Part shown: one piece after another, positions 16,626-34,592 of the stretch
How the letters are laid out: each line of letters begins with the position of its first letter
Position numbering within the stretch: the first letter of the stretch is position 1
Assembly (NCBI GenBank): GCA_021811565.1
Contig: JAJZOL010000172.1
Location: 1 to 34,823, forward strand
DNA: 34,823 nt
From: a bacterium
GTDB taxonomy: Bacteria > Armatimonadota > Chthonomonadetes > Chthonomonadales > CAJBBX01
Reading direction: 5' to 3'
Translations under genes and position numbers: made by a program
Notes under the pieces: model-generated
Databases searched by the model: none
What the model saw: only the letters and a program-made list of their open reading frames with translations
Told to the model about the DNA's origin: nothing

Positions 16626-16642
16626 TTGGCATGGCTTTTGCA
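16626..16642 (+). promoter_or_regulatory. Sigma-54 (-24/-12) promoter of the sugar transferase
   Basis: TTGGCATGGCTTTTGCA fits the sigma-54 consensus at all but one conserved base: TGGCA, then G and purine, three free bases and TTGCA. GG at 16628-16629 and GC at 16640-16641 are exactly 12 bp apart. The start point would be near 16653, giving a leader of about 80 nt before ATG 16732. Confidence 0.8.
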
Positions 16643-16678
16643 GTTAATAAGATTGAGGATAGAAGAGTCCTTGTCCTG

Positions 16679-16698
16679 TTGCGATAATCATATCGCAA
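16679..16698 (+). promoter_or_regulatory. Hairpin in the leader of the sugar transferase mRNA
   Basis: TTGCGATA (16679-16686) and TATCGCAA (16691-16698) form a perfect 8-bp stem with an ATCA loop. It lies between the predicted sigma-54 start point and the ribosome site, and could stabilise or control the transcript, or be a protein-binding palindrome. Confidence 0.4.
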
Positions 16699-16731
16699 TG
16701 CTGCAATTTGGCATTATAGGAGACTCAGTAA

Positions 16732-17460
16732 ATGGCAATAACGGAACCAACACAAAATTCAATCAGTCTGCACTCTCTGGAGATGGGAGTGCAAACTTCA
16801 CTCTATCCCTCGTCAACATTCGATCCTGATTATAGCAGCCATGTTCCGGTTAAAGAAGTTCGGTATGCACAAGCTAAGAGGGTACTCGACATTCTTTTCT
16901 CTTTAGTCGGTTTGATTCTGTTTTCGTGGATTTTTGCGTTAGCGGCGTTGTTAATCAAGCTAACCTCGAAGGGTCCCGTCATATTCAAGCAAACCCGCGT
17001 GGGCGTGGGAGGGCGGCATTTCACCTGTTATAAATTCCGCTCCATGTGCGTGGATGCAGAGTCGAAGAAAAAAGACCTGTTGCATCTGAATGAATGCTCG
17101 GGTCCTGTTTTCAAGATAGAAAATGATCCGAGAATCACCCGAGTTGGTAGAATTCTCAGAAAACTGAGCATAGATGAACTGCCCCAGTTGGTGAACGTTC
17201 TCTTTGGCGATATGAGTATCGTTGGACCCCGTCCTCCCTTGCCCCATGAGGTTTCAAAATACACCCGATATGAGTTTGGGCGTCTGGCTGTGAAGCCAGG
17301 CTTGACCTGTTTATGGCAGATTAGCGGTAGAAGCAACATAGACTTCAAACGCTGGGTTGAGCTGGATATACTCTACATTGAAAATATGACTTTTTGGAAC
17401 GACATCAAGATCATTTTCAAGACCATACCCGCTGTGCTTACATGCCGCGGGGCTAAGTGA
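16732..17460 (+). CDS. Polyprenyl-phosphate sugar transferase (exopolysaccharide priming enzyme)
   Basis: The 242-residue protein is a short bacterial sugar transferase. It moves a sugar-1-phosphate from a nucleotide sugar to undecaprenyl phosphate on the cytoplasmic side of the membrane, the first step of polysaccharide assembly. It has one membrane or re-entrant segment (about 50-72) and then the catalytic core: GPVIFKQTRVG, YKFRSM, DPRITRVGR, SIDELPQL, GDMSIVGPRP and KPGLTCLWQISGRS. The multi-span N-terminal domain of WbaP/EpsE-type enzymes is missing, giving the PglC-like minimal form with about 45 extra N-terminal residues. AGGAG precedes ATG 16732 by 9 nt. It is monocistronic between a sigma-54 promoter and a strong terminator, so it is regulated apart from the downstream glycosyltransferases. 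Confidence 0.93.
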   Translation: MAITEPTQNSISLHSLEMGVQTSLYPSSTFDPDYSSHVPVKEVRYAQAKRVLDILFSLVGLILFSWIFALAALLIKLTSKGPVIFKQTRVGVGGRHFTCYKFRSMCVDAESKKKDLLHLNECSGPVFKIENDPRITRVGRILRKLSIDELPQLVNVLFGDMSIVGPRPPLPHEVSKYTRYEFGRLAVKPGLTCLWQISGRSNIDFKRWVELDILYIENMTFWNDIKIIFKTIPAVLTCRGAK

Positions 17461-17478
17461 ACCGATGAACCATTAAAG

Positions 17479-17517
17479 AAGCCTTTCCGCTCACGTCTCT
17501 GCGGAAGGCTTTTTTTA
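17479..17517 (+). terminator. Rho-independent terminator after the sugar transferase
   Basis: AGCCTTTCCGC (17480-17490) pairs with GCGGAAGGCT (17501-17510) with one bulge. A run of seven or more T follows. Confidence 0.88.
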
Positions 17518-17540
17518 TTGCATAGGGTGTTGCGTTTGCC

Positions 17541-17568
17541 TTTACAAGCAAAGATTGCGTATTATAAT
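17541..17568 (+). promoter_or_regulatory. Sigma-70 promoter of the glycosyltransferase operon
   Basis: TTTACA (17541-17546), a 16-bp spacer and a perfect TATAAT (17563-17568). The start point would be near 17575, about 50 nt before ATG 17625. Confidence 0.75.
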
Positions 17569-17624
17569 CCTGAACCTAAGTTTATACGAGCAATTATATT
17601 CTAACTCTTGGGCAAAGGAAACAC

Positions 17625-18359
17625 ATGAAGTCAAGCGATCGGCAAGAAGCGGAGATCACCTCATCTCCCGAACTCGCGATTCTTGTACCCGTATACAACG
17701 AAATGGAGCACTTGCCGGTTCTTATGGACAGCCTACTTTCGCTCCCCATATCCAAGGAGATCATCATCATCGATGATGGTTCGACGGATGGAACCACACA
17801 ACTCATCCGAAGCGAATTTGACGAAAAGCTCCCTGATGTTAGAGTGATATACTTTGCTCGGAACATGGGCAAAGGATATTGCCTCAGACAAGCGATTCCC
17901 TCCGTCAGAGCGAAATACGCCATCATCCAGGATGGGGATATGGAGTACGATCCTCAAGATATGCTGGAAATTCTCCGTAAATTCAAACAATCGAACGCAC
18001 CGGTGATTTACGGGTCACGTTTTCTTAACGCCTCGCCCCGCATGCACTGGGCGAATAGATTCATTAACTGGTTGCTGGCTTGGATGGTGCGATTTTTATA
18101 TCGTTCCCCGATGACGGACGAAGCCACATGTTACAAGGCGTTCCGAACGGAAATACTCAAATCCATTCCGCTGAAATGTCATCGATTTGAGTTCTGTCCT
18201 GAAGTCACTGCGAAACTGCTTCGTAAACGGGTTCCAATAATGGAAATCCCGATACATTACCATGCAAGGAGTGTGGCTCAAGGGAAAAAAATCCGGTGGA
18301 CCGACGGCGTGATGGCAATCTGGACGTTGATTAAATACCGTATTGTCCGCATTGAATAA
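17625..18359 (+). CDS. DPM1-like glycosyltransferase family 2
   Basis: The 244-residue GT-A enzyme has the nucleotide-binding start LAILVPVYNE, the IIIIDDGSTDGT motif and the metal-binding QDGDMEYDP, as in dolichol- or polyprenyl-phosphate mannosyl/glucosyl transferases. There is no C-terminal membrane domain, so it is of the soluble or peripheral DPM1 type. Such enzymes make polyprenyl-phosphate sugars that serve as donors for GT39/ArnT-like membrane transferases, and exactly such a protein follows 17 bp downstream. AAAGGAAA upstream supports ATG 17625. It is a paralogue of the gene at 19707. Confidence 0.9.
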   Translation: MKSSDRQEAEITSSPELAILVPVYNEMEHLPVLMDSLLSLPISKEIIIIDDGSTDGTTQLIRSEFDEKLPDVRVIYFARNMGKGYCLRQAIPSVRAKYAIIQDGDMEYDPQDMLEILRKFKQSNAPVIYGSRFLNASPRMHWANRFINWLLAWMVRFLYRSPMTDEATCYKAFRTEILKSIPLKCHRFEFCPEVTAKLLRKRVPIMEIPIHYHARSVAQGKKIRWTDGVMAIWTLIKYRIVRIE

Positions 18360-18376
18360 TTTCAAGAGGGATATTC

Positions 18377-19714
18377 ATGGATAACTCACATCTTACCTAC
18401 CGCCGCAACGCCTCGCTCATCTTTCTTTTTGGTCTGATCATTGCGCTGATATGGACATTCGTAATATTCGGTCGGGTTTCAGTTATACATCAGTGGTTTG
18501 ACATGGATGCATTCGGAGCGATAGGTGAACACATCTACCATGGACAAGGATTCAGCCTGGGGAATGGTCCAACAATGCGACGCGCCCCCCTTTACCCCGC
18601 TATAATCGCATTGGTCTTTACGATCTTCGGATTTAACCCTGCGCATCGCGAGGAATCCTACATTCCCGTTTTTGCATTGCAATGCATTTTTGCAGGTCTT
18701 TCCTGTCTTATTGTTTATACGATGGCTCGTCAGCTTTTTAACGAGAAGGTTGCGATTATCGCGGGGCTGCTATGCGCCATATGGCCCCAGTGTTTACGTT
18801 ATTTGGGCGTTGTTGACGATGGTACCACGGACTTGCTCCTAATAACCCTGCTCGCCTTTCTATCGCTGAGATATTACAACGAACCGAATGTAAAAAATGG
18901 GCTTCTCGCAGGAGCCGTGATAGGTTTGGCGGCGCTTACGAAACCGGTGCCTTTTTTGTTTCCCTATCCTCTCGTAGCAATTGCATGGCTCCAAGGCAAA
19001 AGGAACAAGAAGCCTTTTCCTGCGGGCGGAGCTATCGCACTTATCGGCGCAACGCTGGTGCTATGCATTCCATGGATCATTCGAAACAATATCGTTAGCC
19101 ACGGCCAGTTCACTGGCATCAGTTCCAACGCCAGCGGGGAGTTCCTGCGCGGTTATATCAATGCTCAGAGTAAATATTTCCTTTTAAGGAAAAAATTTCA
19201 GGGGAATTGGGATTGGGAGGCTAATTTATATGAAGATGGGATTCTCCATCGATTTGGTCTTGCATTCTTCACATACAAGGATGGTAAGATTGTTGGTAGT
19301 ATGCAGGAGAGTATCCATAATGAAATTACCAAGGAAAAGGCGGAAAATATCGTAGCGAAAAATGATGTGTTGCATCATCCTCTGATCTTTCTCAGGAAAT
19401 TTATCATCCAGCTATTCACATTCTGGTATGTAGTGGAGACCCCCGCGAAATCGCTAATGGTGGGTTTTTTTGCGATTCTGGCAATTGCAGGAGCGATTCG
19501 CGGGGTGCTAATAGCACGTTCCAACGGGGTGGATGTAATGCCGTTAGTGGCGGTCGTGCTATACTTTAATATCATATACGCTGCAATTCTAGCGTTTGCA
19601 CGGTATTCCATGCCTCTGTATCCTATCCTCATAACGCTGGCGGCAAACGGAATAGCAGGAAAAACGAAAAGCGGATCGGAAGTAAAAAAAATGGAGTCTG
19701 TCGTCAATGACTGA
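18377..19714 (+). CDS. GT39/ArnT-like integral membrane glycosyltransferase
   Basis: The 445-residue protein has about ten hydrophobic segments. The first periplasmic loop carries the acidic residues expected of GT-C enzymes (D42 and D44 in WFDMDAFG), followed by GQGFSLGNGPTMRRAPLYP. These resemble the PMT/ArnT superfamily, which moves sugars from polyprenyl-phosphate donors to acceptors outside the cell. The sandwich between two DPM1-like genes suggests these supply its donor. The acceptor (polysaccharide, lipid or protein) is unknown. A periplasmic domain lies around residues 245-330. Its end overlaps the next gene by 8 bp, indicating translational coupling. Confidence 0.85.
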   Translation: MDNSHLTYRRNASLIFLFGLIIALIWTFVIFGRVSVIHQWFDMDAFGAIGEHIYHGQGFSLGNGPTMRRAPLYPAIIALVFTIFGFNPAHREESYIPVFALQCIFAGLSCLIVYTMARQLFNEKVAIIAGLLCAIWPQCLRYLGVVDDGTTDLLLITLLAFLSLRYYNEPNVKNGLLAGAVIGLAALTKPVPFLFPYPLVAIAWLQGKRNKKPFPAGGAIALIGATLVLCIPWIIRNNIVSHGQFTGISSNASGEFLRGYINAQSKYFLLRKKFQGNWDWEANLYEDGILHRFGLAFFTYKDGKIVGSMQESIHNEITKEKAENIVAKNDVLHHPLIFLRKFIIQLFTFWYVVETPAKSLMVGFFAILAIAGAIRGVLIARSNGVDVMPLVAVVLYFNIIYAAILAFARYSMPLYPILITLAANGIAGKTKSGSEVKKMESVVND

Positions 19715-20465
19715 TCGGCAAACGGACATTTACGAGGCCAACATGACAACAAAAGATTTCATGGGACATGATTTCACACTCTCCGTGATAGTGCCGATCT
19801 ATAACGAAGTGAACACTCTTGAGGAAATTCTATGCCGCATCAGGGATGTTGATATTAAAAAAGAGATCGTGATGGTGGATGATGGTTCCAACGACGGCAC
19901 GCGAGAGCTTTTAAGAGATAAAATTGAGGGCAAGTATTCGGATGTGAAGGTGTTCTATCATGAAAGAAACAGCGGCAAAGGCGCTGCGGTTCGAACCGCC
20001 ATCGAACAATGCACAGGAGATATCGTCCTGATTCAGGACGCGGATCTGGAGTATGATCCTAAGGAATACTTCTCATTAATCGCGCCTATAGTCGAAGGAA
20101 AAGCCGATGTCGTCTTCGGCTCGCGTTTTCTCGGAGGCGGTGCGCATCGGGTGCATCTATTCTGGCATCGCATGGCGAACGGGATGCTCACCACGCTCTC
20201 CAATATGATGACCAACCTTAATCTGACCGATATGGAGGTCTGTTACAAGGTTTTCCGCAAGGAGATCATCAAAGACATACAAATTCAATCAAACCGATTC
20301 GATTTTGAGCCTGAGATCACTGCAAAAGTGGCGAAAAAGCGGTGTAGAATATATGAGGTGCCCATTTCATACGCTGGACGAGACTACGATGAAGGTAAAA
20401 AGATCGGCTGGCGGGATGGTGTCGTGGCGTTGTGGACGATATTCAAATATCGTTTCATTAAATGA
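19707..20465 (+). CDS. DPM1-like glycosyltransferase family 2, second copy
   Basis: This 252-residue GT2 enzyme has LSVIVPIYNEV, VMVDDGSNDGT and QDADLEYDP, like its paralogue at 17625, and the same C-terminal pattern ending with GKKIGWRDGVVALWTIFKYR. ATG 19707 overlaps the membrane transferase gene and has GGAG 10 nt upstream. A later in-frame ATG at 19743 is a possible alternative and would remove 12 poorly conserved residues. Two paralogues may make two different polyprenyl-phosphate sugars for the same or different transferases. The 271 bp after it hold no convincing gene or terminator. Confidence 0.9.
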   Translation: MTDRQTDIYEANMTTKDFMGHDFTLSVIVPIYNEVNTLEEILCRIRDVDIKKEIVMVDDGSNDGTRELLRDKIEGKYSDVKVFYHERNSGKGAAVRTAIEQCTGDIVLIQDADLEYDPKEYFSLIAPIVEGKADVVFGSRFLGGGAHRVHLFWHRMANGMLTTLSNMMTNLNLTDMEVCYKVFRKEIIKDIQIQSNRFDFEPEITAKVAKKRCRIYEVPISYAGRDYDEGKKIGWRDGVVALWTIFKYRFIK

Positions 20466-20736
20466 AGGGTTGGATCAATTCCGAGAATTTGCGATCAACG
20501 AGCTTTTGAAGCTTAAGCAAATCCCTAAAAACACTTATTTACAATTTCCCGGAATGAAACATGAAATATGGCTTATATCGAATGCAAAGTTCGGCTCTTG
20601 GGGCTTTCGCTTAGCTTGAATCGCTCGCTTATTATTTCAGGCGATTGCTTCTTCGCTTCGCATAAACATGCGGCATGGGGGTGAGGGGGCTAATTCCCTG
20701 GATTTGTAGTTAATGTTATTGAAAAGGGGTATGGAC

Positions 20737-21708
20737 ATGATTTTAGTCACCGGCGGAGCCGGATACATTGGGAGCCACTATGTTCTCTATGAACGCAATC
20801 GCGGAAATAAAGTCGTTGTTCTCGACAGCATGGTGTATGGACATCGAGGAGCGGTCAAAGACGTTCCTTTGGTGGTTGGCGATATGGGCGATCGATTGAC
20901 TTTGGATCGTCTGTTCAATAAATATCCAATCGACGCGGTGGTACATTTCGCGGCATTCGCCTATGTGGGGGAATCGGTCACCGATCCGGAAAAATACTAC
21001 AATAACAACGTTCGGTCCACTTTAAGCCTGTTGGATGCGATGCGTCAGTACGGGGTGAGGAACTTCATTTTCTCCTCCTCGTGCGCAACCTACGGCAACC
21101 CTAAATACGTTCCAATGGATGAGAAGCATCCTCAAAATCCCATAAATCCCTACGGTGAAAGCAAATTCTTCTGTGAGAAGATCATGAACGCATATGATAA
21201 GGCTTACGGATTGCGTTACGCCGCACTGCGATATTTCAACGCTTCGGGATCGGATCCGGATGGGAATATCGGCGAGAGTCATGACCCGGAAACCCATCTC
21301 ATTCCAATCGCCCTTCAGGTGGCTTCAGGAATGCGAGACAAAATGACGATATTCGGTGATGATTACGACACCCCTGATGGAACTTGTATTCGCGATTACA
21401 TCCATGTGCTTGACTTGGCTCAAGCTCACTCCCTGGCGTTGGAGAGATTACGCGACGGCGGTGAAAGCAGCTACTATAATCTCGGATCGGAAACAGGTTA
21501 CTCCGTTCGAGAGATTATAAACGTTTGCGAGAAGGTATCCGGAAAAGCTATCCCGGTTGAAATGGGACCCCGGCGTGAGGGAGACCCGCCGCGTTTGGTG
21601 GCAAGTTCGGCAAAGGCAAAACGAGAATTAGGCTGGGAGCCAAAATACACGGATATCGAGGCGATAATCCGCCATGCATGGAACTGGGAAACAAACCGAA
21701 AATATTAA
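20737..21708 (+). CDS. galE: UDP-glucose 4-epimerase
   Basis: GalE interconverts UDP-glucose and UDP-galactose with bound NAD. The 323-residue protein starts with the Rossmann motif MILVTGGAGYIGSH. Catalytic residues fit the short-chain dehydrogenase pattern: Ser in FSSSCATYG, then Y139-x3-K143 in NPYGESKFFCEK. ATG 20737 is preferred because AAAGGGG lies 8 nt upstream and the glycine-rich loop then sits at the very N-terminus. Two in-frame ATGs at 20713 and 20731 would add short unconserved extensions. It lies 44 bp ahead of rmlA and probably supplies galactose for the same polysaccharide. Confidence 0.94.
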   Translation: MILVTGGAGYIGSHYVLYERNRGNKVVVLDSMVYGHRGAVKDVPLVVGDMGDRLTLDRLFNKYPIDAVVHFAAFAYVGESVTDPEKYYNNNVRSTLSLLDAMRQYGVRNFIFSSSCATYGNPKYVPMDEKHPQNPINPYGESKFFCEKIMNAYDKAYGLRYAALRYFNASGSDPDGNIGESHDPETHLIPIALQVASGMRDKMTIFGDDYDTPDGTCIRDYIHVLDLAQAHSLALERLRDGGESSYYNLGSETGYSVREIINVCEKVSGKAIPVEMGPRREGDPPRLVASSAKAKRELGWEPKYTDIEAIIRHAWNWETNRKY

Positions 21709-21752
21709 CGTTCCACAGCATAAGCGAAATATACGCATGACAAGGAGGCAAG

Positions 21753-22817
21753 ATGAAGGGATTAATCCTCAGCGGCGGGAAAGGGACTCGACTCCGTCCC
21801 ATCACCTATACAAGCGCCAAGCAACTCGTACCCGTGGCGAACAAGCCAATCCTTTACTATGCCATCGAATGCATCCGAAACGCGGGCATTCATGAAATAG
21901 GGATCATTGTCGGAGACACCCAGGAAGAGATTCGTTCCGCCGTTGGGGATGGCTCCATGTGGGGGGTTAACGTGACCTACATCCCTCAAAGCGCTCCATT
22001 AGGACTCGCCCATGCGGTGATGACAGCGGAGGAATATCTCGGCGATGATTCCTTCGTAATGTATTTAGGAGATAACATCGTCAAAGATGGGATCACCCCG
22101 CTTGTCAAGGATTTCTCCAAACACACTCCGAACGCTCAAATCCTTCTCGCGCACGTTCGAAATCCGCAGGAGTTCGGTGTGGCGGAGTTGGATGGGGATC
22201 GAATTGTCCATCTCGTGGAAAAACCATCGGAGCCTAAAACCGATCTGGCGTTGGTAGGAGTGTATATGTTCGACAAGCGCATCTTCGAAGCGGTGCACGC
22301 CATCACCCCTTCAGCGCGCGGAGAGTATGAGATTACCGATGCCATTCAATATCTCATAGATCATGGTTACGAGGTGAAGTCCCACGTAATCGACGGGTGG
22401 TGGAAGGATACCGGCAAGCTCGATGACATGCTTGAGGCTAACAGAATCATCCTTGACACCCTCTCATATCGAATGGACGGGATAGCCGACGCCAGTTCCA
22501 TCCTGAATGGCAAAGTGGACATCGGAAAGGGGTCCCGCATACTCAGAAGCGAAGTGCGCGGTCCGGTTATCATAGGGGAGAACTGCGTGATTGAAGACGC
22601 CTACATTGGCCCGTTCACTTCCATTCACGATGATGTTCGCATCCTTCATAGCGAAATTGAGCATAGCATCGTGCTCTCCCACAGTTCCATCATCAACATA
22701 GAACAAAGAATCTCCGACAGTTTGATCGGAAGAAATGTGGAGGTTCGAAAAGAAGAAAGGCGTCCCCATGTATATCGTTTTATGCTTGGGGATAACAGTC
22801 AGGTGAGCATATCATGA
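21753..22817 (+). CDS. rfbA: Glucose-1-phosphate thymidylyltransferase, long form
   Basis: The enzyme joins dTTP and glucose-1-phosphate to dTDP-glucose, the entry to dTDP-deoxysugars. The 354-residue protein begins with the nucleotidyltransferase signature MKGLILSGGKGTRLRP and continues KQLVPVANKP. The last third has hexapeptide-like repeats (GPVIIGENCVIEDAYIGPF) forming a left-handed beta-helix, the long-form type seen in antibiotic and surface-sugar clusters rather than the 290-residue enteric RmlA. AAGGAGG gives a perfect ribosome site. Its TGA overlaps the ATG of the next gene. Confidence 0.94.
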   Translation: MKGLILSGGKGTRLRPITYTSAKQLVPVANKPILYYAIECIRNAGIHEIGIIVGDTQEEIRSAVGDGSMWGVNVTYIPQSAPLGLAHAVMTAEEYLGDDSFVMYLGDNIVKDGITPLVKDFSKHTPNAQILLAHVRNPQEFGVAELDGDRIVHLVEKPSEPKTDLALVGVYMFDKRIFEAVHAITPSARGEYEITDAIQYLIDHGYEVKSHVIDGWWKDTGKLDDMLEANRIILDTLSYRMDGIADASSILNGKVDIGKGSRILRSEVRGPVIIGENCVIEDAYIGPFTSIHDDVRILHSEIEHSIVLSHSSIINIEQRISDSLIGRNVEVRKEERRPHVYRFMLGDNSQVSIS

Positions 22818-23263
22818 CAAGTCAGATACCAGGAGTGGTTATAAACAAGCTAAGTCGTTTCACGGATGCCCGAGGATGGCTGTCCGAACTTTTTCGCGAA
22901 GATGAGCTTCCCGAAGGATTCCATCCCGTGATGGGTTACCTCTCTGTAACTCACCCGGGGGTGGCAAGAGGACCGCATGAGCATGTGACGCAATCAGACT
23001 GCTTCTGTTTTCTCAGCGGTAAATACCGACTAACCCTTTGGTTCCGATCCGATACAGGCATCCTCAAGGAGGTGCATGAAACGGGCGAGGAAAACGCCTT
23101 CTTGGTGATCGTCCCGCCGGGTGTTGTTCATGCATATGAAAACATCGGAGAGCAAGACGCCTTTGTGCTGAATTTCCCCGACAAGCTTTACGCCGGTAAA
23201 GGCAAGAAAGAGCCAGTAGACGAGATACGGCATGAGGATATCGACTCGGAGTTCAAACTATGA
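22814..23263 (+). CDS. RmlC-like cupin, dTDP-4-dehydrorhamnose 3,5-epimerase family
   Basis: The 149-residue cupin sits between rmlA and rmlB with 4-bp overlaps on both sides, so it should act on the dTDP-4-keto-6-deoxyglucose made by its neighbours. It keeps the epimerase-family His in ARGPHEH and a second His in VPPGVVHAYEN. However, true RmlC reads RGLHYQ, and the catalytic Tyr region (Y132 in RmlC) here reads FVLNFPDKLY, with no Tyr at the expected place. It is also shorter than RmlC (about 180). It may be a divergent epimerase or a ketoisomerase-like cupin (FdtA-like). The family is clear; the exact reaction is not. Confidence 0.75.
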   Translation: MTSQIPGVVINKLSRFTDARGWLSELFREDELPEGFHPVMGYLSVTHPGVARGPHEHVTQSDCFCFLSGKYRLTLWFRSDTGILKEVHETGEENAFLVIVPPGVVHAYENIGEQDAFVLNFPDKLYAGKGKKEPVDEIRHEDIDSEFKL

Positions 23264-24294
23264 GCCGTACGCTATTGGTCACAGGAGGCGCGGGATTTAT
23301 CGGAACCAATTTCGTGCGGTACTGGATGGAAAACTATCCGGATGATCGCATTGTCGTATTGGATGCATTGACATACGCGGGAAATCCGGCGAACATGGAG
23401 GAGTTGAGAAACGACTCCAGGTTTCGGTTTTATCCCGGTCGGATCGAGGATTTTACGGTTGTGGAAGGGATTTTCCGCTGGGAGAGAATCTCGCATGTTC
23501 TCAATTTCGCTGCGGAGTCTCATAACGACCGTAGTTTGATGGACCCCACGGGTCTTATTTCCTCCAACGTAACAGGCGTCAGCATCCTTCTTGAGTGCTC
23601 GCGAAAGTACGGTGCGGAAAGAATGCTGCATGTTTCGACGGACGAGGTGTATGGCGAAATCGAGAGCGGGTTATTCAGAGAGACGGATCCGTTGGAGCCG
23701 AGAACCCCTTACTCGGCGGGCAAAGCTAGTGGAGAGTTGCAAGTGCGAGCGCATCAAATCGCTTATGGTACAAAGTCTTTGGTGACTCGCGGCTCGAACA
23801 CATTCGGACCGTTCCAATTTCCGGAAAAAATCCTGCCGTTTTTCATCACCAGGGCGATGCAGGATAAGATGCTGCCTCTGTATGGCGATGGCAACCAGGT
23901 GCGAGATTGGATTTTTGTACGGGATCATTGCTCCGGCATCGCCACCGCCCTATTGAAAGGCGAGATCGGTCAGGTCTACAACGTAGGCGGTGGGAATGAG
24001 CGACCTAACATTGAAGTCACCAAAATGGTATTGCAAGCATTGAGCAAACCCGAAACTCTCATCAAACGAATTCCCGATCCTCGCGGAGCGTCGCATGACA
24101 AACGATACGCATTGAATACCGAAAAGATTGAAAAGCTTGGCTGGAAGCCATCCGCCACATTTGAAGAGGCGTTGGGGAAAACGGTGCAGTGGTATGTGGA
24201 TCATCGATTCTGGTGGGAGGAAATTGTGAACTCAACAAGGTACCGGCAATTTGTCAAGGCGTTTTACGGACCGTATCTTGGTGAGGATTTATAA
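23260..24294 (+). CDS. rfbB: dTDP-glucose 4,6-dehydratase
   Basis: RmlB converts dTDP-glucose to dTDP-4-keto-6-deoxyglucose using NAD. The 344-residue protein starts LLVTGGAGFIGTNFVRY. It has the dehydratase active-site motif STDEVYG and the SDR pair Y151-x3-K155 in TPYSAGKASGE, plus the family features RGSNTFGPFQFPEK and VRDWIFVRDHC. The GKAS sequence differs slightly from the usual SKA-x-S/D. It is translationally coupled to the cupin gene and lies 2 bp before the adenylyltransferase gene. No rfbD reductase for dTDP-rhamnose is in the window. Confidence 0.93.
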   Translation: MSRTLLVTGGAGFIGTNFVRYWMENYPDDRIVVLDALTYAGNPANMEELRNDSRFRFYPGRIEDFTVVEGIFRWERISHVLNFAAESHNDRSLMDPTGLISSNVTGVSILLECSRKYGAERMLHVSTDEVYGEIESGLFRETDPLEPRTPYSAGKASGELQVRAHQIAYGTKSLVTRGSNTFGPFQFPEKILPFFITRAMQDKMLPLYGDGNQVRDWIFVRDHCSGIATALLKGEIGQVYNVGGGNERPNIEVTKMVLQALSKPETLIKRIPDPRGASHDKRYALNTEKIEKLGWKPSATFEEALGKTVQWYVDHRFWWEEIVNSTRYRQFVKAFYGPYLGEDL

Positions 24295-27182: not shown

Positions 27183-27238
27183 TATTCGATCCCTCCCTCT
27201 AATCGTAAATCAAATTCACCCTTTTACAGGAGATTAAC

Positions 27239-30214
27239 GTGAAACGGAACCTCTTCAGAAATGTCCTCCCTTACGGCATCCTCCTTACGTTGTTCTTCGG
27301 GGTAGCGGCGTTACAGGCGAAAGCCAATGACCATATCTTTCCCCCATCTCCTGCTGCAAGCCCTTACATCAATTTCGATAGTCACGGTTTTTTGATCAAT
27401 GGCAAACGAACTTTCATCGTCTCCGCCGGAATGGAGTATGCTCGCGTGCCTCGAGACCTCTGGCGAGACAGATTGCTGAGACTAAAACGAGCGGGATTTA
27501 ACTGTGTGGAGATGTATAACTTCTGGAACTGGCATGAACCGGAAGAGGGAAAATTCGATTTCACCGGCAGTCATGATCTAAACGCTTACCTGCAACTGGT
27601 GAAAAAGATGGGGATGTACGCGATCTGCCGTGTGGGACCCTATTACTGCGCTGAGTGGACGAACGGAGGATATCCTATCTGGCTTCGCTCCAAGCCAGGT
27701 CTGGTTGCGCGTGTGAACAACCCGGTCTTTCTCAAATATGTCGATCGCTATTTTGACAAACTCATACCGATCGTCGCGAAGAATCAAATCAATCACGGGG
27801 GACCGGTAATATTGGTTCAGTTGGAGAATGAACACCCTGGCGGATGGGGCACCGAGGATCACACAAACGGGTACCTTTCTCACCTGAGGAAAAAAGCGCT
27901 ATCGCTTGGTTTGCAGGTGCCATATTTCTACAGCGGGCTGCATCATGGAAGCGACCCGGCGGGAAACAGCATGCTTGACGATCCAACCCGCCCCAATCCT
28001 TGGATGACCACCGAGTTCTGGAGCGTGTGGTACTCCGATTACGGTCCGCATCCCGGTGACGCCAGAACATACAGTCGCCGAACTTGGAAGATCATAGCTC
28101 ATGGCGGCAACGGATACAACTACTACATGGCGCATGGGGGTTCCAACTTCGGTTACACCAACAACAACGAAGACGCAGCCTCTTACGATTACGGCGCGGC
28201 GGTGGGTCAGGGAGGTGATCTTCGCCCTATGTACTACGCCTTCAAACGCGCAGCGTGGTTCGCTCGGAGCTTCGAGGATATTCTTGAAAACAGCAACGAT
28301 GCTTCCGAGGACTATCAAGGAACGGCATCGAATTCAGAAGTGCGCGTTACGGCGAGAAAAAGCCCCGCCGGAACGATCGTATTCTTGGATAACCCGTCTA
28401 ACTCATCGGCTGAAACCACCGTGCAAGTGCCGCAAAACACCGGTCTTTCAACCTCAGGCGAATTAACATTGGAACCGGAAGAGATCATTCCCGTAGTCGA
28501 GGGATTTAAAATCGCGCCAAATGTGACCATCTCCTGGGCGCCGACAAGAGTTTTGGGAATCTTTCCCCAAGGCGATACGGTTACCATGGTGGTATACGGT
28601 CAACCCGGATCGCCAGCCGAGGTGTTATTCAAAGCCCCACCCGGAGCTCATATCCTTCAAGGCGCACGAAACATGAAACGCATGGAGGGTAACTTCATCC
28701 TACTTAAAACTCGATTCTCCGATGGAGAACCCGAAGAGTATGTTTTTTCGGACGGCAAGAGGAGAATTCGAGTATTAGCGATGAGCCAATCGCTTGCGGA
28801 AAGGACTTGGCTTGTACACTCAGGCGAACAGCCTTTTATCGTATGCGGCCCCCATTATATCGGAGACGCCTTCCTTCGGAATGGAAAGCTGATCATAAAC
28901 GCGGAGTTGCCTTGGGTTCAAACAAAGGTTCCAGCAGCACTCGCCTACTCCGCGTCTGACATCCCTGTTCGACTGCGATCGGAACGCGTATCCTTCAATC
29001 ATCCCAAGCAACTCACTCTGAGCGGATGGGAGGTTCGCAGCGCCATGCAGGCTGCATCCCCCCATTACAAAGATCAGACTTGGTTGAAAAGCGCCAAGCC
29101 GCTTCAAATGGGTTCCGATGGGGATTTAACCGCCGACGCATGGTATCGCACTAGGATTGACGTTCCAAAAGCGGGTGACTATTCCTTCCACGCTCAAGCA
29201 GGAGGGGACCGCATGATCGCCTATGTCGATGGAAAGCGCGTGGGTGCGGGTAACCTCCACGAAGGAAATATCACACTCCGTCTCCCGTCGGGAAGGCATA
29301 TCCTCGCAATCTTCACCGCGCATGATGGCAGAAGCAAGATATGCTGCAGCCCGGGACCGATCGACACTTACGATCCCAAAGGGCTGATGGGAACGGTTTC
29401 GCTTCAAAACGGAAAACGGGTTGAGTTGCAAGGCTGGCGGATGATGCCCGCAAACGGTCGAGAAGACGTGACCAACGGTCCTCCATCACCCGATGATCCT
29501 CGTTGGAAAAGCTACATGGTGGGAGCGGACGCATTTAATCAGCAGCCCGGGTATGCATGGTTCCAAACAACATTCACTCCCGTCGTGACAAAGAATCAAA
29601 TGCTGATCTTCGAGAGCGTGGATGACAACGGAACCGTCTTCGTAAACGGCAAGGAGATTTCTCATCACACCGGATGGAATGAACCCTTCAATGTCTCATT
29701 GGATGGTATTTTGAAGGCGAATGAGCCTGCGGTTGTATCCGTCTTTGTGCATAACACAGCAAACGTGGGCGGAATCGCCAAACCGGTCTACTTCACGAAT
29801 TACACCGGAGAGGGGGTTTCCATCGGAGAGTGGCGAATGAAGGGAGGTCCAGGAGATCCCAATTCCAACATCGGATGGTCGAAATTGACCCAATCTGAAA
29901 AATTCGCTGGCCCGACATACTTCCGCACATCCTTCATCACCGATCCTCCAGCGGAGATCGGAACGCACCCCATTTGGAGGGTTGTCATCACCAGCATGGG
30001 GCACGGTTCGGTATGGGTGAACGGGCACAATCTCGGCAGATATCCAGAGAAAATCCCGATTAACGGGTTATACATCCCCGAATGCTGGTTGAAGCATGGC
30101 AGGAACACATTGGTAATCTACGATGAGGATGGCACTCGCCCGGACAAGGTGACGGTATCCTCGGAACTTGCCGCCAGCAGGGATGCTTATGAGTTGGTTG
30201 GCGAGACAAGGTAG
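27239..30214 (+). CDS. Secreted GH35 beta-galactosidase
   Basis: The 991-residue protein starts at GTG 27239 with AGGAGAT 5 nt upstream and carries a signal peptide (hydrophobic core at about 12-26, cleavage near QAKA). The GH35 (beta/alpha)8 barrel covers about residues 45-345, with the hallmark ARVPRDLWRDRL and the stretch around YNFWNWHEPEEGKFDF. The acid/base is E198 in LENEHPGG (family usually NEYG) and the nucleophile is E259 in MTTEFWSVWY (family usually EFW-x-GW). Several beta-sandwich domains follow, the last two jelly-roll-like with VNGKEISHHTGW and VNGHNLGRYPEKIP. It should remove terminal beta-galactose from outside polysaccharides. It may be transcribed by read-through from the tRNA promoter. 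Confidence 0.93.
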   Translation: MKRNLFRNVLPYGILLTLFFGVAALQAKANDHIFPPSPAASPYINFDSHGFLINGKRTFIVSAGMEYARVPRDLWRDRLLRLKRAGFNCVEMYNFWNWHEPEEGKFDFTGSHDLNAYLQLVKKMGMYAICRVGPYYCAEWTNGGYPIWLRSKPGLVARVNNPVFLKYVDRYFDKLIPIVAKNQINHGGPVILVQLENEHPGGWGTEDHTNGYLSHLRKKALSLGLQVPYFYSGLHHGSDPAGNSMLDDPTRPNPWMTTEFWSVWYSDYGPHPGDARTYSRRTWKIIAHGGNGYNYYMAHGGSNFGYTNNNEDAASYDYGAAVGQGGDLRPMYYAFKRAAWFARSFEDILENSNDASEDYQGTASNSEVRVTARKSPAGTIVFLDNPSNSSAETTVQVPQNTGLSTSGELTLEPEEIIPVVEGFKIAPNVTISWAPTRVLGIFPQGDTVTMVVYGQPGSPAEVLFKAPPGAHILQGARNMKRMEGNFILLKTRFSDGEPEEYVFSDGKRRIRVLAMSQSLAERTWLVHSGEQPFIVCGPHYIGDAFLRNGKLIINAELPWVQTKVPAALAYSASDIPVRLRSERVSFNHPKQLTLSGWEVRSAMQAASPHYKDQTWLKSAKPLQMGSDGDLTADAWYRTRIDVPKAGDYSFHAQAGGDRMIAYVDGKRVGAGNLHEGNITLRLPSGRHILAIFTAHDGRSKICCSPGPIDTYDPKGLMGTVSLQNGKRVELQGWRMMPANGREDVTNGPPSPDDPRWKSYMVGADAFNQQPGYAWFQTTFTPVVTKNQMLIFESVDDNGTVFVNGKEISHHTGWNEPFNVSLDGILKANEPAVVSVFVHNTANVGGIAKPVYFTNYTGEGVSIGEWRMKGGPGDPNSNIGWSKLTQSEKFAGPTYFRTSFITDPPAEIGTHPIWRVVITSMGHGSVWVNGHNLGRYPEKIPINGLYIPECWLKHGRNTLVIYDEDGTRPDKVTVSSELAASRDAYELVGETR

Positions 30215-30283
30215 CGTAAGTCGGCTGTCGGGCTTAAACGTCTGATTTCCGAAATCGTCACTTCATCCGGATGATTATGAAGC

Positions 30284-30329
30284 GAGCGTTGGCGAAAATG
30301 ATCCTTGGATCATAGCCAACGCTCTTTTT
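30284..30329 (+). terminator. Rho-independent terminator after the beta-galactosidase
   Basis: GAGCGTTGGC (30284-30293) pairs perfectly with GCCAACGCTC (30315-30324). An inner stem ATGATCC/GGATCAT extends the hairpin, and TTTTT follows. Confidence 0.9.
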
Positions 30330-30390
30330 CACATAGCATCAATGATTGTCCCTATGCGGTCACCGAATGCAGACCTATCGATATGCGTGT

Positions 30391-30419
30391 CAAAAATGCA
30401 TATGCGCAAAGCATTTTTG
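30391..30419 (-). terminator. Possible terminator of the Na/Pi cotransporter gene
   Basis: CAAAAATGC (30391-30399) and GCATTTTTG (30411-30419) form a perfect 9-bp inverted repeat with an 11-nt loop. A-rich and T-rich halves let it act in either direction; on the minus strand it lies 71 bp past the stop codon of the gene ending at 30490. Confidence 0.45.
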
Positions 30420-30489
30420 AAAATGTGAATACAAGGATTGAATCAGATATTTACATAATCAACCGATTTCGTTCCCCTAAATATACGGT

Positions 30490-32124
30490 TCAGACCGCCT
30501 GTGGAGCCGCAGGAGCGTCCCCGGTGACGGAAGCCTTCTCTGTGGCGGGAGAGATATTGGAAAGCAACTTGGAGAGCCGATGCGTCATCCAGCCCACAAG
30601 CTCGAAATCGTCCACCAACGCCAGGAGGGACACTCGGGCGCTCATATCCCCCTCCGCAGCCGTCATGCAGAAAGTCCGCACATCCTCTATCAACGGTCCG
30701 TGCGTTCGGGTCTGCACCCGAAGCGTTTCGATGTCGTTTGCATTCAAAGTGTCAGCAGCCGTTGCCGCAAGAGCGAGTAGCTGGTCAATGGCATCTGTCA
30801 GCTTTTTGACCACCTCCTTCTCCTTATTTGACTCCGTGAGGCGGATTGCCGCATCCTTGAATTCGATCACGCTCTCCTCGAGATAGCGGATCAAAGAGAG
30901 CTCCTCGCGCATATGGTGCAGCCGATCCGCAGCGTCCGAACTCAATTGATTATGACTTGAAAGCCGATTGGCGAAGTTTTCCGCCTCCCCTGCAAGGGTG
31001 CTGAACGCCTCCTGAACCGGACTTGATCCGGATCCGGATTTTCCGTTCTCCGCAAGCACATCACGGATATGCCGCAGCAGTCTCGCATGCTCCTTTGCGA
31101 GCAGATCCATGGCTGTGAGTGAATCCCCTATCGCCTGTTCATTGATATACTGCGGTCGTGAATCCTTCTCCTCCCGCGCGTCGGGCCAAATCCTTTTCAG
31201 AACCGCCCAACAGGGAAGTATGACGAACATCAGGGTCAACGCCGGTAAGAGGTTGGAAAGGAGAAACGCCGCCGCCACCTGTAGCCTGCGATCGGGATTG
31301 AACGCGATCACCGCCGCCTTGACGAGCGGGATCCCCGTCAAATTTTCCAAATAGAAGAGCGCGATCATTAATATCCCGCTCCAAACGCAGAACAGGTCTT
31401 CAAGGCGCACCAATCTAAGAGAGGTTCCGCGTAATCCCGACGCGAGGATCGCCCGGAGCGCGATCGCCCCGAGGTTGGTTCCGTAGATCAGCATCAAAGC
31501 CTGGTTCATGTTGAACGCCCCCGCGCCGGTCAGTGTAATGATGAGGAGCGCGGCGCCTGTGTTGGATTGCAGCAGAGCCGCCGCAACGATACCAACCAAA
31601 AACGCCAGCATGGGAGCGGAGGCTGTGGTGGCAATGATCGCATGAAACCACACCATGTTTTTCAACGGAGCGGCGCCCCGCCCCATCGTCTCCAAACCAT
31701 AAAGCATTAGAGCCACTCCGAAGAGCGCCCCTGCGGCGGGCCGCCACCCAGGCTTGCGGATCACACCCACCAAAATGCCCGCGAAACCGACGCAATACGC
31801 CACGATGGGATGAATATTGAAGGTCGCCACAAACGCCAGAAAGGTCAAACCCACATTAGCCCAGACGATTACGGGAAGGGCGCTCTGGGAATCGATCACA
31901 GTGCTGCTTACCATACTGACAAGGATGAACGTTACGGCGGTGGCGCTCTGCATCAATGCACCGAACACCGTCCCCATCAGACAGTCCCCCCAGACGGAAC
32001 CCGTGCTTTTGGCAACCGCAGCGCGAAAGCTGCTCGCGGAGACCCTTCGCAGGTTATCTCCCACGGATTGCAAACCGACGAAAAACAGCCCCAGCCCCAG
32101 AACCAAAGATTCCAACATGCCCAT
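30490..32124 (-). CDS. Na/Pi cotransporter-like membrane protein with PhoU-like tail
   Basis: The 544-residue protein has two repeated transporter halves in residues 1-310. Each holds the family's QS motif: LMQSATAVTFILV in the first and LLQSNTGAALLII in the second. The C-terminal 200 residues are soluble, helical and PhoU-like (heptad-rich HARLLRHIRDVLAEN and similar). The layout matches NptA/YjbB-type sodium/phosphate cotransporters, which often move phosphate out of the cell. The QSS motif of classical members is changed to QSA and QSN, so phosphate specificity is not assured. GAGGTGAG upstream of ATG 32124 is a good ribosome site; ATG 32118 is also in frame. No phosphate-regulon genes are adjacent. 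Confidence 0.88.
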   Translation of the reverse strand: MGMLESLVLGLGLFFVGLQSVGDNLRRVSASSFRAAVAKSTGSVWGDCLMGTVFGALMQSATAVTFILVSMVSSTVIDSQSALPVIVWANVGLTFLAFVATFNIHPIVAYCVGFAGILVGVIRKPGWRPAAGALFGVALMLYGLETMGRGAAPLKNMVWFHAIIATTASAPMLAFLVGIVAAALLQSNTGAALLIITLTGAGAFNMNQALMLIYGTNLGAIALRAILASGLRGTSLRLVRLEDLFCVWSGILMIALFYLENLTGIPLVKAAVIAFNPDRRLQVAAAFLLSNLLPALTLMFVILPCWAVLKRIWPDAREEKDSRPQYINEQAIGDSLTAMDLLAKEHARLLRHIRDVLAENGKSGSGSSPVQEAFSTLAGEAENFANRLSSHNQLSSDAADRLHHMREELSLIRYLEESVIEFKDAAIRLTESNKEKEVVKKLTDAIDQLLALAATAADTLNANDIETLRVQTRTHGPLIEDVRTFCMTAAEGDMSARVSLLALVDDFELVGWMTHRLSKLLSNISPATEKASVTGDAPAAPQAV

Positions 32125-32403
32125 GGCGGCTCACCTCGATAAGGATTGGGTCGATGATCGAAGATAAAAAAGGAATGCTCGTAACGTTAACCTTAAGAAT
32201 ACACCCCAAATGGGAAATTTCCTATCTTTGGAAGAGGAACAGGGGAAAGTTAGGAATTGAAAGTCAAAATTTTCTTAAGAACCGAGGATATCTGTCTTTC
32301 CTTTTGTAACAAAGTGGTCTCGTCAAATGATAGAAAGACAAAATACCGGTATGAAACTTCCTCATCCCGGATTATTACAATCATCAGAACGCGCATTCCA
32401 TCA

Positions 32404-33114
32404 TTAGGCTAATGATAATCGCCGCTTTAGCAGGAACGCCAATCCGGGAAAAACACCGGATAAAAGAAACGGTAAACACCCGGGTTCCGGAACAGATTTT
32501 GCGGGAGCGGATGGATCATATTTTATGTCTAACGTATTGATTGCAAATGAATCTCCTCTGTTGACCATTTTAAAATCAATCCTTGAAATATTCGGCGTGT
32601 CACTGGATACACCTAAAAACACGGCGGGAAGGCCACTCGAGGAATCTGCATATCCTGATCCGCTATAGATGCCTAATAAGCCATTATGGCTATCATAGGC
32701 TGATATGCTTGCCGTATACCCTCCCCCATTATACGGCATGATATTCGCCCCCGCCGATGATATGGGAGTATCGAATGTGATGTTCAAACTGCTATTACCT
32801 GTCCAATCCCACAATATTATCGATCCGTGTGGCAACAGATTCCCCCACCAACCATAAGCGGATTTATTAATGGATAATTGACCGCCCATTGAATCGCTAA
32901 TGGTACCGGTGATTCCACCCAATGAGTTGAAATTGGATGGGTCTGAAATGAATTTCGCTCCTGTTCCATATTGGCTCCAATCCACTGAATCCGTCGCATT
33001 CAAACTCCCTCTGTCACCAATAAAAAACACCTGCGTCTTGGCTGTCTTGCTCATACAGAAAATCATGAACGTTGCGGACGCGAATGCGGCAATTACTCTC
33101 TTCTTGAAAAGCAT
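32404..33114 (-). CDS. PEP-CTERM sorting-domain surface protein, copy 1
   Basis: This 236-residue protein has a signal peptide (basic MLFKKRV, hydrophobic core, cleavage near SKTAKTQ) and ends with a typical PEP-CTERM sorting signal: VPEPG, a hydrophobic segment and KRR near the C-terminus. Exosortases cut such proteins after export to the cell surface or exopolysaccharide. The beta-rich central domain shares SAAGANI, ISAYDS-x-N-x-LLG, FLGVSS and FAINTLDI with the neighbouring paralogue, which is also exactly 236 residues. ATG 33114 is chosen because AAGGAG lies 7 nt upstream; ATG 33129 would overlap that site and adds five residues. A sigma-54 promoter lies 57 bp upstream. No exosortase is in the window. 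Confidence 0.88.
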   Translation of the reverse strand: MLFKKRVIAAFASATFMIFCMSKTAKTQVFFIGDRGSLNATDSVDWSQYGTGAKFISDPSNFNSLGGITGTISDSMGGQLSINKSAYGWWGNLLPHGSIILWDWTGNSSLNITFDTPISSAGANIMPYNGGGYTASISAYDSHNGLLGIYSGSGYADSSSGLPAVFLGVSSDTPNISRIDFKMVNRGDSFAINTLDIKYDPSAPAKSVPEPGCLPFLLSGVFPGLAFLLKRRLSLA

Positions 33115-33170
33115 TTTAGTCTCCTTCATCCTGAAAGTGTAGGGTATACAGTCCCTTAAATATCAAATAC

Positions 33171-33187
33171 TGCAATTATCATGCCAA
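33171..33187 (-). promoter_or_regulatory. Sigma-54 (-24/-12) promoter of PEP-CTERM gene 1
   Basis: On the minus strand this reads TTGGCATGATAATTGCA. It has the same TTGGCATG and TTGCA boxes as the sugar transferase promoter and exact 12-bp GG-to-GC spacing (33185 to 33173). The start point would be near 33161, about 47 nt before ATG 33114. Confidence 0.8.
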
Positions 33188-33299
33188 ACTGTTAGCTGAT
33201 TCATGTAATAATAGATATATTTACCAGGCTAAAGCACCTATTCAACACTAACAATGTTATCTTTGAGTAGTCACATATCCTCCTTATGATAATTTGAGA

Positions 33300-33311
33300 A
33301 ACTAATTAATC
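33300..33311 (-). promoter_or_regulatory. Candidate enhancer element, copy B
   Basis: GATTAATTAGTT on the minus strand, identical to the 12-mer at 16558-16569 and in the same direction relative to its promoter. It lies about 120 bp upstream of the -24 box, within the normal range for sigma-54 activator sites. Confidence 0.4.
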
Positions 33312-33328
33312 ATCCCATGGTGTCACAT
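33309..33328 (-). promoter_or_regulatory. 20-bp element shared by both PEP-CTERM upstream regions, copy 1
   Basis: Minus-strand ATGTGACACCATGGGATGAT matches the element at 34646-34665 at 17 of 20 positions. It abuts the 12-bp candidate enhancer element. A perfect palindrome TCACATATGTGA (33323-33334, plus strand) overlaps its end. Confidence 0.35.
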
Positions 33329-33330
33329 AT

Positions 33331-33600
33331 GTGAAGGTGCATTCCAGTGGCGACAGCGTAATTTTGTCAAAAGGCTTCGCAATCATCTCTCCTCAAATCC
33401 AGCTACATTCCGTGCTCAAAGGCGGATTGGAAAAGATATACGGCTGGACCAGCGATGACGGCGGCATACGACACGCCCTCATGGAGGGGGATACGCCGCC
33501 CACCTTCGCTGACGCGAAGTTCATGCTCGTGGCATGCTCGGCGCTTATGAACTACCTAACCACTAAAGCGGCTGAGAACGGTTTGGATATAAACTTGTAA
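33331..33600 (+). pseudogene. C-terminal remnant of an abortive-infection-like (HEPN-type) protein
   Basis: The open frame of 89 codons (GTG at 33331) contains LEKIYGWTSDDGGIRHALME and FADAKFMLVACSALMNYL. From memory this closely resembles the last 60-70 residues of AbiJ-like abortive-infection proteins, which are normally several hundred residues long. The rest of such a protein is missing: upstream frames are closed, and the GTG sits inside a palindrome next to the PEP-CTERM regulatory region without a clear ribosome site. The first 25 residues have no resemblance to the family. It is therefore most likely a decayed fragment stranded between the two PEP-CTERM genes. The family name is recalled, not searched. 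Confidence 0.5.
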
Positions 33601-33741
33601 TAAATACTCATCATACGATTGATGATCCGCTCTCCTCTCCTATTTCGATGAATTGGATTCCAAAACGAAAGGCTTGCTCACGCCTCATCCTGTCATAAGG
33701 CGATAACGGTGCGGAGTGTCACTTAATAGAGGAACATGAAA

Positions 33742-33772
33742 ACATAACAGGGGACGAGATACCCTCGTCCCC
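33742..33772 (-). terminator. Rho-independent terminator of PEP-CTERM gene 2
   Basis: GGGGACGAG (33750-33758) and CTCGTCCCC (33764-33772) form a perfect 9-bp GC-rich stem with a 5-nt loop. On the minus strand it is followed by the T-rich TGTTATGTTTTC and lies 29 bp past the stop codon. Confidence 0.85.
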
Positions 33773-33800
33773 GTATTACCTTCTCAATTGGCGCAATCCA

Positions 33801-34511
33801 TCAAACGGCTTTGGCATAACGTCTCTTCATTAGAAAAGCCAATCCGGGGAGGAAACCGGCAAGGAGGAAAGCTAAATCGCCGGGCTCCGGAACGGCTGTT
33901 GAGGGATTCTGCCTGATTCCAAGCTGATTGATGGCGAAGTCGTTACCGGCGCCATTTGATATCCCATAGGTTATTCTTGAAATATCGGCTGTGGAATTAG
34001 ATATTCCAAGGAATATCGCAGATCCGTCATTGTTTGCATTTGAATTGCCAGGCTCAGTAAAAGTACCGAGCAGATTATTACTCGAATTGTAGGCGGATAT
34101 GGTTGCGTCAAATGTACCATATAAATCCGACTGTATATTGGCTCCCGCAGCGGATACAGGGGTATTGAAGCCGACATTCAAATACTCTCCCGGATTTGCA
34201 ATCTCAGACCATAGTACGTACTCGCCTTGAGTGAAATTACCTATCCACCCGTTTTCCTGTTGGCGTATCTGCATCTGCGAGGAATCGCTGGTGGAAATCT
34301 GGCCGGTGAGCCCATTATTGGATGTGAAAGTGGATGACTGTGCGACATTGGTGCTTGTTGGACCAAACTGACCCCAATTTACCAAATCCGTACCTCCCAA
34401 ACCCGTGCGGGAGATAACCTCAAGCACTTGAGCGCCTGACCACGCGCTTACAAAGAATACGATAAATACTGCAAGGATTGTTGGCAACACCACACGAGAA
34501 CTGAATTTCAT
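33801..34511 (-). CDS. PEP-CTERM sorting-domain surface protein, copy 2
   Basis: This 236-residue paralogue of the upstream PEP-CTERM protein has a signal peptide (MKFSSRVV, long hydrophobic core, cleavage near WSGAQ). A Ser/Asn/Gly-rich beta domain follows, with VSAAGANI, ISAYNSSNNLLG, IFLGISNSTADISRI and FAINQLGI. The C-terminal sorting signal VPEPG, hydrophobic helix and MKRR ends the protein. An open frame continues to ATG 34580, but that codon lies inside the -12 box of the sigma-54 promoter. ATG 34511 has GAGGAG 6 nt upstream and starts exactly at the signal peptide, so it is the true start. A strong terminator follows. Confidence 0.9.
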   Translation of the reverse strand: MKFSSRVVLPTILAVFIVFFVSAWSGAQVLEVISRTGLGGTDLVNWGQFGPTSTNVAQSSTFTSNNGLTGQISTSDSSQMQIRQQENGWIGNFTQGEYVLWSEIANPGEYLNVGFNTPVSAAGANIQSDLYGTFDATISAYNSSNNLLGTFTEPGNSNANNDGSAIFLGISNSTADISRITYGISNGAGNDFAINQLGIRQNPSTAVPEPGDLAFLLAGFLPGLAFLMKRRYAKAV

Positions 34512-34575
34512 CTTTTTCTCCTCATAACAAATCCATCGCCATACTCGGTATTTATTTGGCAACACATCTATTATC

Positions 34576-34592
34576 TGCATGTTTTATGCCAT
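34576..34592 (-). promoter_or_regulatory. Probable sigma-54 promoter of PEP-CTERM gene 2
   Basis: Minus-strand ATGGCATAAAACATGCA keeps TGGCAT and TGCA with exact GG-to-GC spacing of 12 (34590 to 34578) but has ATGC instead of TTGC at -12. The start point would be near 34566, about 55 nt before ATG 34511. It is weaker than the other two sites. Confidence 0.6.

Follow-up and report, generated by a model that had tools for sequence, protein, structure and literature searches.

A candidate RpoN regulon for the surface matrix in Chthonomonadales, with a single sigma-54 activator lacking a recognisable DNA-binding domain

Introduction

Can a bacterium outside the Proteobacteria place the proteins and polysaccharides of its surface matrix under sigma-54 (RpoN) and, if so, which activator would work the promoters? 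The question is raised by a stretch of 34,823 nucleotides, here called the window, which is the whole of contig C9 in a genome of 4.007 Mb (248 contigs, 92.4% complete) from a member of the Chthonomonadales, an order assigned to Armatimonadota in the NCBI taxonomy. In this window, a gene for a priming sugar transferase and two genes for PEP-CTERM-like surface proteins are each preceded by a sequence resembling a sigma-54 promoter, with its GG (-24) and GC (-12) boxes. A sequence-only reading of the same DNA had proposed that a regulon similar to the one known from some Proteobacteria, in which RpoN acts with PrsK and PrsR, exists in an apparently non-proteobacterial lineage. We consider it likely that the three sites are promoters belonging to a genome-wide RpoN regulon for the surface matrix, and that these would be served by one kinase-fed activator of the group-5 type, acting from solution and without an enhancer.

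The precedent comes from Proteobacteria. In the available part of the report by Haft (2006; PMC1569441), sigma-54 sites together with an upstream motif precede 99 of 167 proteobacterial PEP-CTERM genes and are tied to PrsK, PrsR and PrsT, these motifs being common only to Proteobacteria among the species discussed there. For Aquincola, the accessible portion of a further paper (PMC9850573) gives a mapped transcription start with GG and GC boxes for pepA, and describes exopolysaccharide genes that seemingly lie outside RpoN1 control.

Results

All three -24/-12 sites of the window were confirmed, in the right positions and in a number above chance. The site before the sugar transferase, TTGGCATGGCTTTTGCA, lies at 16626-16642 on the forward strand, and those before PEP-CTERM-like genes 1 and 2, TTGGCATGATAATTGCA and ATGGCATAAAACATGCA, lie on the reverse strand at 33171-33187 and 34576-34592, respectively. 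Within them the pattern spans 16627-16642 (+), 33171-33186 (-) and 34576-34591 (-), in agreement with the positions and orientations claimed earlier, and the distance of 12 bp between GG and GC is confirmed at all three. The window contains the form TGGCATN6TGCA 3 times, against a mean of 0.08 and a maximum of 1 in 100 dinucleotide shuffles. When one mismatch is allowed just 2 further matches appear (30739-30754 and 34035-34050), both within coding frames, and the claim that no comparable site precedes the other genes is borne out at this level; the resulting total of 5 is at chance level (4.6 expected), as are the 63 matches with two mismatches (55.1 expected). In the sister species (G001, same genus), which is 90% identical over the alignment of window positions 8147-33632, the sugar transferase has the same 17-mer at equal distance, the site of gene 1 shows 1 substitution, in the spacer, and the homologue of gene 2 has ATGGCACGCATCTTGCA.

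Across the genome the strict site, defined as TGGCAYN6TGCW, occurs 44 times, against 18 for the reversed pattern. As judged by one home-made codon-score gene caller, 26 of the 44 are noncoding, against 6.1 expected from a baseline of 110 kb that was not selected by the pattern; in the sister the figures are 40 of 59 against 8.2. Nearly all the noncoding sites (23/26) point towards a called gene start no more than 400 bp away, and 10 have a gene start behind them. Half of them (13/26) precede 12 PEP-CTERM-like genes; 11 of these sites were flagged by the caller and 2 were read by eye, the gene caller having missed a PEP-CTERM gene at C206:76552 and the regular expression one at C240. The genome holds 11 matches to PF07589, 8 of them over the cut-off, and the scan for enrichment at PEP-CTERM genes, which the sequence-only reading had called for, places a strict site upstream of 6 of the 11 (P about 2e-13 at the genome's own site density); another match has a site with one mismatch, which is strict in the sister, and one is located at the end of a contig. 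A pair of strict sites separated by about 150 bp (926-941 and 1075-1090 on the reverse strand of C241 in the window's genome, G000) stands before a single PEP-CTERM gene, and a related gene of the sister also has two.

A further 11 of the 26 noncoding sites precede genes of other kinds, and 2 are without a called gene. Besides the sugar transferase and a receiver-PilZ protein, the targets outside the PEP-CTERM family comprise a sigma-70 family factor, two proteins carrying N-methyl pilin motifs, one RecN-like and one DUF4352 protein, and four that gave no match in Pfam. By eye, the target L029 is Wzz-like (no family match) and the target L016 resembles a glycosyltransferase (PF13704, E 0.18), and neither name is claimed here. 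This set, much wider than the three promoters of the window, is well supported as a genome-wide set of putative sigma-54-type promoters. The sigma-70 family factor (regions 1.2, 2, 3 and 4; L048:1698-2786) has its strict site 147 bp upstream, at G000:C206:21536-21551, and the sister has the identical site at the identical distance; a cascade from sigma-54 to sigma-70 is possible.

The genome has one rpoN gene, which the sequence-only reading had asked to be looked for (PF00309, PF04963 and PF04552 over cut-off; TIGR02395 314.7 against 277.35). It also has a single strong sigma-54 activator, a protein of 403 amino acids encoded on contig C63, with a receiver, a Sigma54_activat (AAA+) domain and an AAA lid. 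Pfam detected no helix-turn-helix or Fis DNA-binding domain in this protein, which by its predicted architecture, a receiver plus AAA+ without a DNA-binding domain, is of the group-5 (FlgR/CtcC) type. Its best named match, 97% identical, is in 'Chthonomonadales bacterium isolate clean347', and its best NCBIfam profile is AtoC (501.6, under the cut-off of 714). Immediately upstream lies a kinase gene that is truncated by the end of C63; the complete kinase of the sister contains a PAS domain and a pair of GAF domains and shows no clear membrane span, and its best NCBIfam profile is AtoS (329.2, under the cut-off of 646). Immediately downstream lies the receiver-PilZ gene, with a strict site of its own and a PilZ motif (RxxxR, DxSxxG) identified by eye. 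The sister's operon stands beside, and is followed by, a homologue (L177:13073-13948) of the gene at the window's left end (94..1026, +), so the kinase-activator-PilZ operon of C63 most likely adjoins the left end of the window.

The comparison set comprised 41 genomes, of which 25 have both rpoN and an activator, 15 have neither and one (64% complete) has rpoN alone. Where an order-level genome has a strong activator, which is so in 16, it has exactly one, and the next matches are far weaker (1e-8 and up); given this, a missing second activator is unlikely. A frame of 724-912 amino acids lies directly upstream in 13 of 15 activator neighbourhoods, 10 of these frames showing a recognisable histidine box, and in 8 of the 15 a strict site stands between the activator gene and a following receiver gene.

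Exosortase genes, the other component to be looked for, are present as well (TIGR02602 121 bits, cut-off 105.55, and 90.9, below it), and an exosortase thus co-occurs with several PEP-CTERM proteins, as in a PEP-CTERM/exosortase system. The two genes, G000:C25:18695-19396 and C225:1411-2136, are nearest to the XrtD/XrtW profiles, under every subtype cut-off, and the former has a weak EpsI-like C-terminal match. No strict site stands just before either gene on contigs C25 and C225.

All 23 called target rows match a site-bearing protein of the sister, 18 of them at an identity of at least 68%. Twelve 17-mers are identical between the two genomes, and over 14 sister pairs mean identity is 0.94-0.96 across the element, a value inflated at the constrained positions by the selection of matching sites, and 0.77-0.94 in the other 8-base bins. 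From other genomes, 85 PEP-CTERM stretches were chosen among the matches listed; 2 were too short and 83 were scored. Among the PEP-CTERM genes sampled from five genomes that have rpoN and belong to the same or one neighbouring family, 19 of 30 have strict sites, against 0.12 expected, and 3 of the 19 (L265, L266 and L268) fall in the first 100 bp of a stop-to-stop frame. Remoter rpoN-bearing genomes have them at 2 of 19 sampled genes, and four genomes without detected rpoN (two of which are 73-78% complete) at none of 12. The strict pattern in antisense or reversed form was found at none of the 83 sampled genes; since the same controls with a laxer pattern gave 2/83 in antisense and 2/83 reversed, the strict pattern alone was used. 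In one genome in which rpoN was not found (G022), the pattern has 217 matches against 35 reversed; the Markov expectation is 22.8 per Mb, or about 141 for its 6.2 Mb, and a 298-kb sample contained 12 matches. Base composition accounts for most, not all, of this excess.

The activators of the order share a short end. In all 16 order-level proteins, and in those of the outlying Armatimonadota genomes G033 and G035, the chain stops 29-36 amino acids past the sensor-II motif. Among relatives from outside the phylum (39 of 72 matching loci were read, the remaining loci matching only in part), 36 of 38 continue for 86-128 amino acids after sensor-II, with a Fis-type helix-turn-helix recognised by eye; the other 2 were not parsed, and one of them showed a tail of 84 amino acids in a separate tail measurement. 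In a tree of 62 rows, the 18 short-tailed activators form one group (92/92), nested in an Armatimonadota group (100/99) that also includes three proteins with longer tails, and G038 is a separate short-tailed case on a long branch. In G035 the first residue of the loop that contacts sigma-54 is G, as in each of the 36 outside proteins read; beyond G035 (n = 17) the loop is NAFTGA in 16 proteins and SAFTGA in one. Variants at the second G of the loop (GAFTNA, GAFTSA, GAFTDA, GSFTNA and GSFTDA) occur in G031, G038, G039, G032 and G034 (L080-L106), and some of the remoter Armatimonadota activators with loop variants carry weak-looking helix-turn-helix tails.

For the clade as a whole we lean, by a little, towards the following account. 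In Chthonomonadales together with G033 and G035, the only strong activator would have lost its DNA-binding domain once, as the tree suggests, and its loop would have changed beyond G035; RpoN would be a single-input switch worked from solution, which in the window's family would drive the surface matrix, that is, PEP-CTERM proteins, sugar priming, pseudopilin-like proteins, the PilZ protein and the sigma-70 factor. This would make it a group-5 lineage beyond FlgR and CtcC, and an RpoN-PEP-CTERM regulon outside Proteobacteria.

As regards the genes of the window themselves, the sugar transferase (242 amino acids; 16732..17460, +) matches PF02397 with 237.5 bits and TIGR03025 with 303.9 against a cut-off of 295.55, the latter match covering the C-terminal part of the profile only, and it starts 91 bp downstream of its -24/-12 site. 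Upstream of the next glycosyltransferase gene (17625-18359) lies a sigma-70-like candidate promoter, TTTACA-16-TATAAT (17541..17568, +; 11/12 matches), which is compatible with the earlier proposal that this gene would be expressed from sigma-70; matches of that quality number 8 in the region against 6.1 expected, chance occurrence being common. PEP-CTERM-like gene 1 (241 amino acids; 32404..33129, -) ends in VPEPG..KRRLSLA and scores 12.1 bits with PF07589, under the cut-off of 20.7; gene 2 (236 amino acids from its likelier start; 33801..34511, -) scores 14.8 bits with TIGR02595, under the cut-off of 16. In both tails, each below the curated cut-offs, VPEP, a hydrophobic stretch and KRR were recognised by eye. 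For gene 2 a frame of 259 amino acids would begin within the -12 box, the ATG at 34511 is preceded by AGGAGAAAAAG, and a paralogue likewise starts MKFSS; the start is therefore likelier at 34511. The sister's copy of gene 1 (L329, G001:C19, near 14928) has the promoter conserved and looks frameshifted or misassembled, because its start and its VPEPG tail are in separate frames. Upstream of gene 1 the window also has a frame of 89 amino acids (33331-33600, +), in a stretch that is near-identical in the sister; Pfam gave no match to it up to E 10.

Discussion

How might one protein serve all these promoters? In the mechanism that we propose, the kinase, whose part is suggested by gene adjacency, would sense a cue and phosphorylate the activator; the activator would assemble, and its AAA+ domain would contact the sigma-54 polymerase from solution at every -24/-12 promoter, untethered and with no enhancer. 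With a single activator, the entire RpoN regulon would behave as one matrix switch. Its output may extend to c-di-GMP signalling and to a second sigma factor, since the targets include the receiver-PilZ protein and the sigma-70 family factor.

Several observations weigh against this mechanism or the regulon on which it rests. The 44 strict sites modestly exceed the 32.5 expected from a first-order Markov (dinucleotide) model derived from the window; the raw count is therefore weak evidence, and we have put the weight on the placement and conservation of the sites. Three of the 11 PF07589 matches have no site, the RecN-like noncoding target has no obvious matrix role, and 7 of the 15 activator neighbourhoods are without a strict site before a following receiver gene. 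Five of the 23 sister matches are weak, at 36-51% identity, and may be paralogues. A third family of the order (f3, sampled in G013, G017, G019, G020, G024 and G025), in which rpoN is likewise present and the activator type is shared, has the strict site at 2 of 22 sampled PEP-CTERM genes (0.12 expected). Finally, a search for enhancers in 23 upstream regions, with 8 shuffles per width, returned an AT-rich motif that outscored every shuffle at all three widths.

It is this motif that speaks for a different arrangement, in which sigma-54 does use these promoters but some other protein on the DNA, or an element upstream, recruits the short activator, which would keep control enhancer-like. The log-likelihood ratio of the motif is 35.6 against a shuffled maximum of 31.5, 50.9 against 44.1 and 69.1 against 56.5 (the last two at widths 16 and 20), and an enhancer bound by another protein keeps some probability because these values beat the shuffles; the upstream sequence is, moreover, well conserved between the sister species, at about 0.81-0.94 per 8-base bin. 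However, that conservation has no sharp peak, and the motif is of low complexity and far weaker than the promoter element, which in the same search reached 229 against a shuffled maximum of 50.3. Since the search gave only this AT-rich motif, far below the promoter, we favour independence from enhancers and regard recruitment as unlikely. A conventional PrsK/PrsR system, with a Fis-type PrsR on an enhancer at each promoter and its gene missing from an assembly that is 92% complete, appears to us quite improbable. The targets do resemble the proteobacterial PEP-CTERM regulon, so far as the available part of PMC1569441 describes it, the assembly is incomplete, and a weak upstream motif exists; yet the best match to PrsR has 391.3 bits against the TIGR02915 cut-off of 502.6, the best match to PrsK in the genome has 90.7 against 300 for TIGR02916 (the C63 kinase has 81.9), none of the 41 genomes passes the PrsR cut-off, and the 16 order-level genomes with a strong activator have one apiece. 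With scores below the profile cut-offs and an AtoC-like activator devoid of a Fis-type domain, we reject membership in PrsK/PrsR. To that extent the sequence-only reading has to be given up; its non-proteobacterial lineage (Armatimonadota), rpoN, exosortases and sites before PEP-CTERM genes and the priming gene stand.

We see very little chance that the sequence is instead the binding site of another dimeric regulator, an idea prompted by the partly palindromic GCA-N7-TGC and by GCAT-N5-ATGC within several sites. The strict sites face their gene, and no antisense one precedes any of the 83 PEP-CTERM genes sampled; the GG-GC spacing is fixed by the pattern, the 12 sampled genes in genomes without detected rpoN have no site, and in several genera the site adjoins the activator gene.

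A regulon worked from solution by one group-5 activator has likenesses in several known systems and is identical to none of them. As in the proteobacterial PEP-CTERM regulon, -24/-12 sites stand at many PEP-CTERM genes, the sigma-54 activator is of the two-component kind, and exosortase and polysaccharide genes are found in the genome. Unlike PrsR, the activator scores under the PrsR cut-off and is without a DNA-binding domain, and the kinase is not PrsK-like and has no clear membrane span. In the proteobacterial system the enhancer motif lies about 63 nt upstream of the -24/-12 site; here a weak AT-rich motif and no convincing enhancer motif was seen, the published motif itself not having been scanned. 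Unlike in the proteobacterial regulon, sites here also stand before the sugar transferase and further genes outside the PEP-CTERM family. AtoS-AtoC gives the best profiles for kinase and activator, both under their cut-offs, but the activator here has no Fis domain and the predicted targets are surface genes.

The closest parallels in mode of action would be the group-5 activators FlgR and CtcC, which consist of a receiver and AAA+ without a DNA-binding domain and for which enhancer-free action has been proposed, according to the available parts of PMC7175178 and PMC7482065. CtcC is described in the latter as closest to AtoC, as the activator here is, and Chlamydia, in the accessible part of PMC3162934, has one sigma-54 activator, as does this genome. 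The differences from FlgR and CtcC are the other phylum, the matrix targets and the loop NAFTGA, and the likeness is one of architecture; with the Campylobacter FlgR profile the activator scores 341.7, the cut-off being 750. The lineage described here would add to FlgR and CtcC, the two named in the portion of the review PMC7175178 that was available.

In the literature as judged by title and the start of the abstract, with subscription papers mostly outside coverage, we found no report of an RpoN-PEP-CTERM regulon outside Proteobacteria. At the same depth, the paper that joins Armatimonad with PEP-CTERM concerned LuxI/LuxR and not this regulon, and the combination of Chthonomonas and exosortase returned nothing; among the papers listed by broader searches, which mostly reach work on sigma factors and carry less weight, none names these bacteria; a word search of the sigma-54 surveys PMC3162934 and PMC12316311 found neither 'PEP-CTERM' nor 'Armatimonad'.

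If our reading is correct, the control of exosortase-anchored surface proteins by sigma-54 is not confined to Proteobacteria, and here it would employ another activator and another mode of action. The loss of the DNA-binding domain together with a changed loop, in a clade whose genomes have one activator each, would then offer a natural experiment on the conditions under which enhancers can be dispensed with. For work on biofilms of Armatimonadota, the targets form a defined list of mostly uncharacterised genes.

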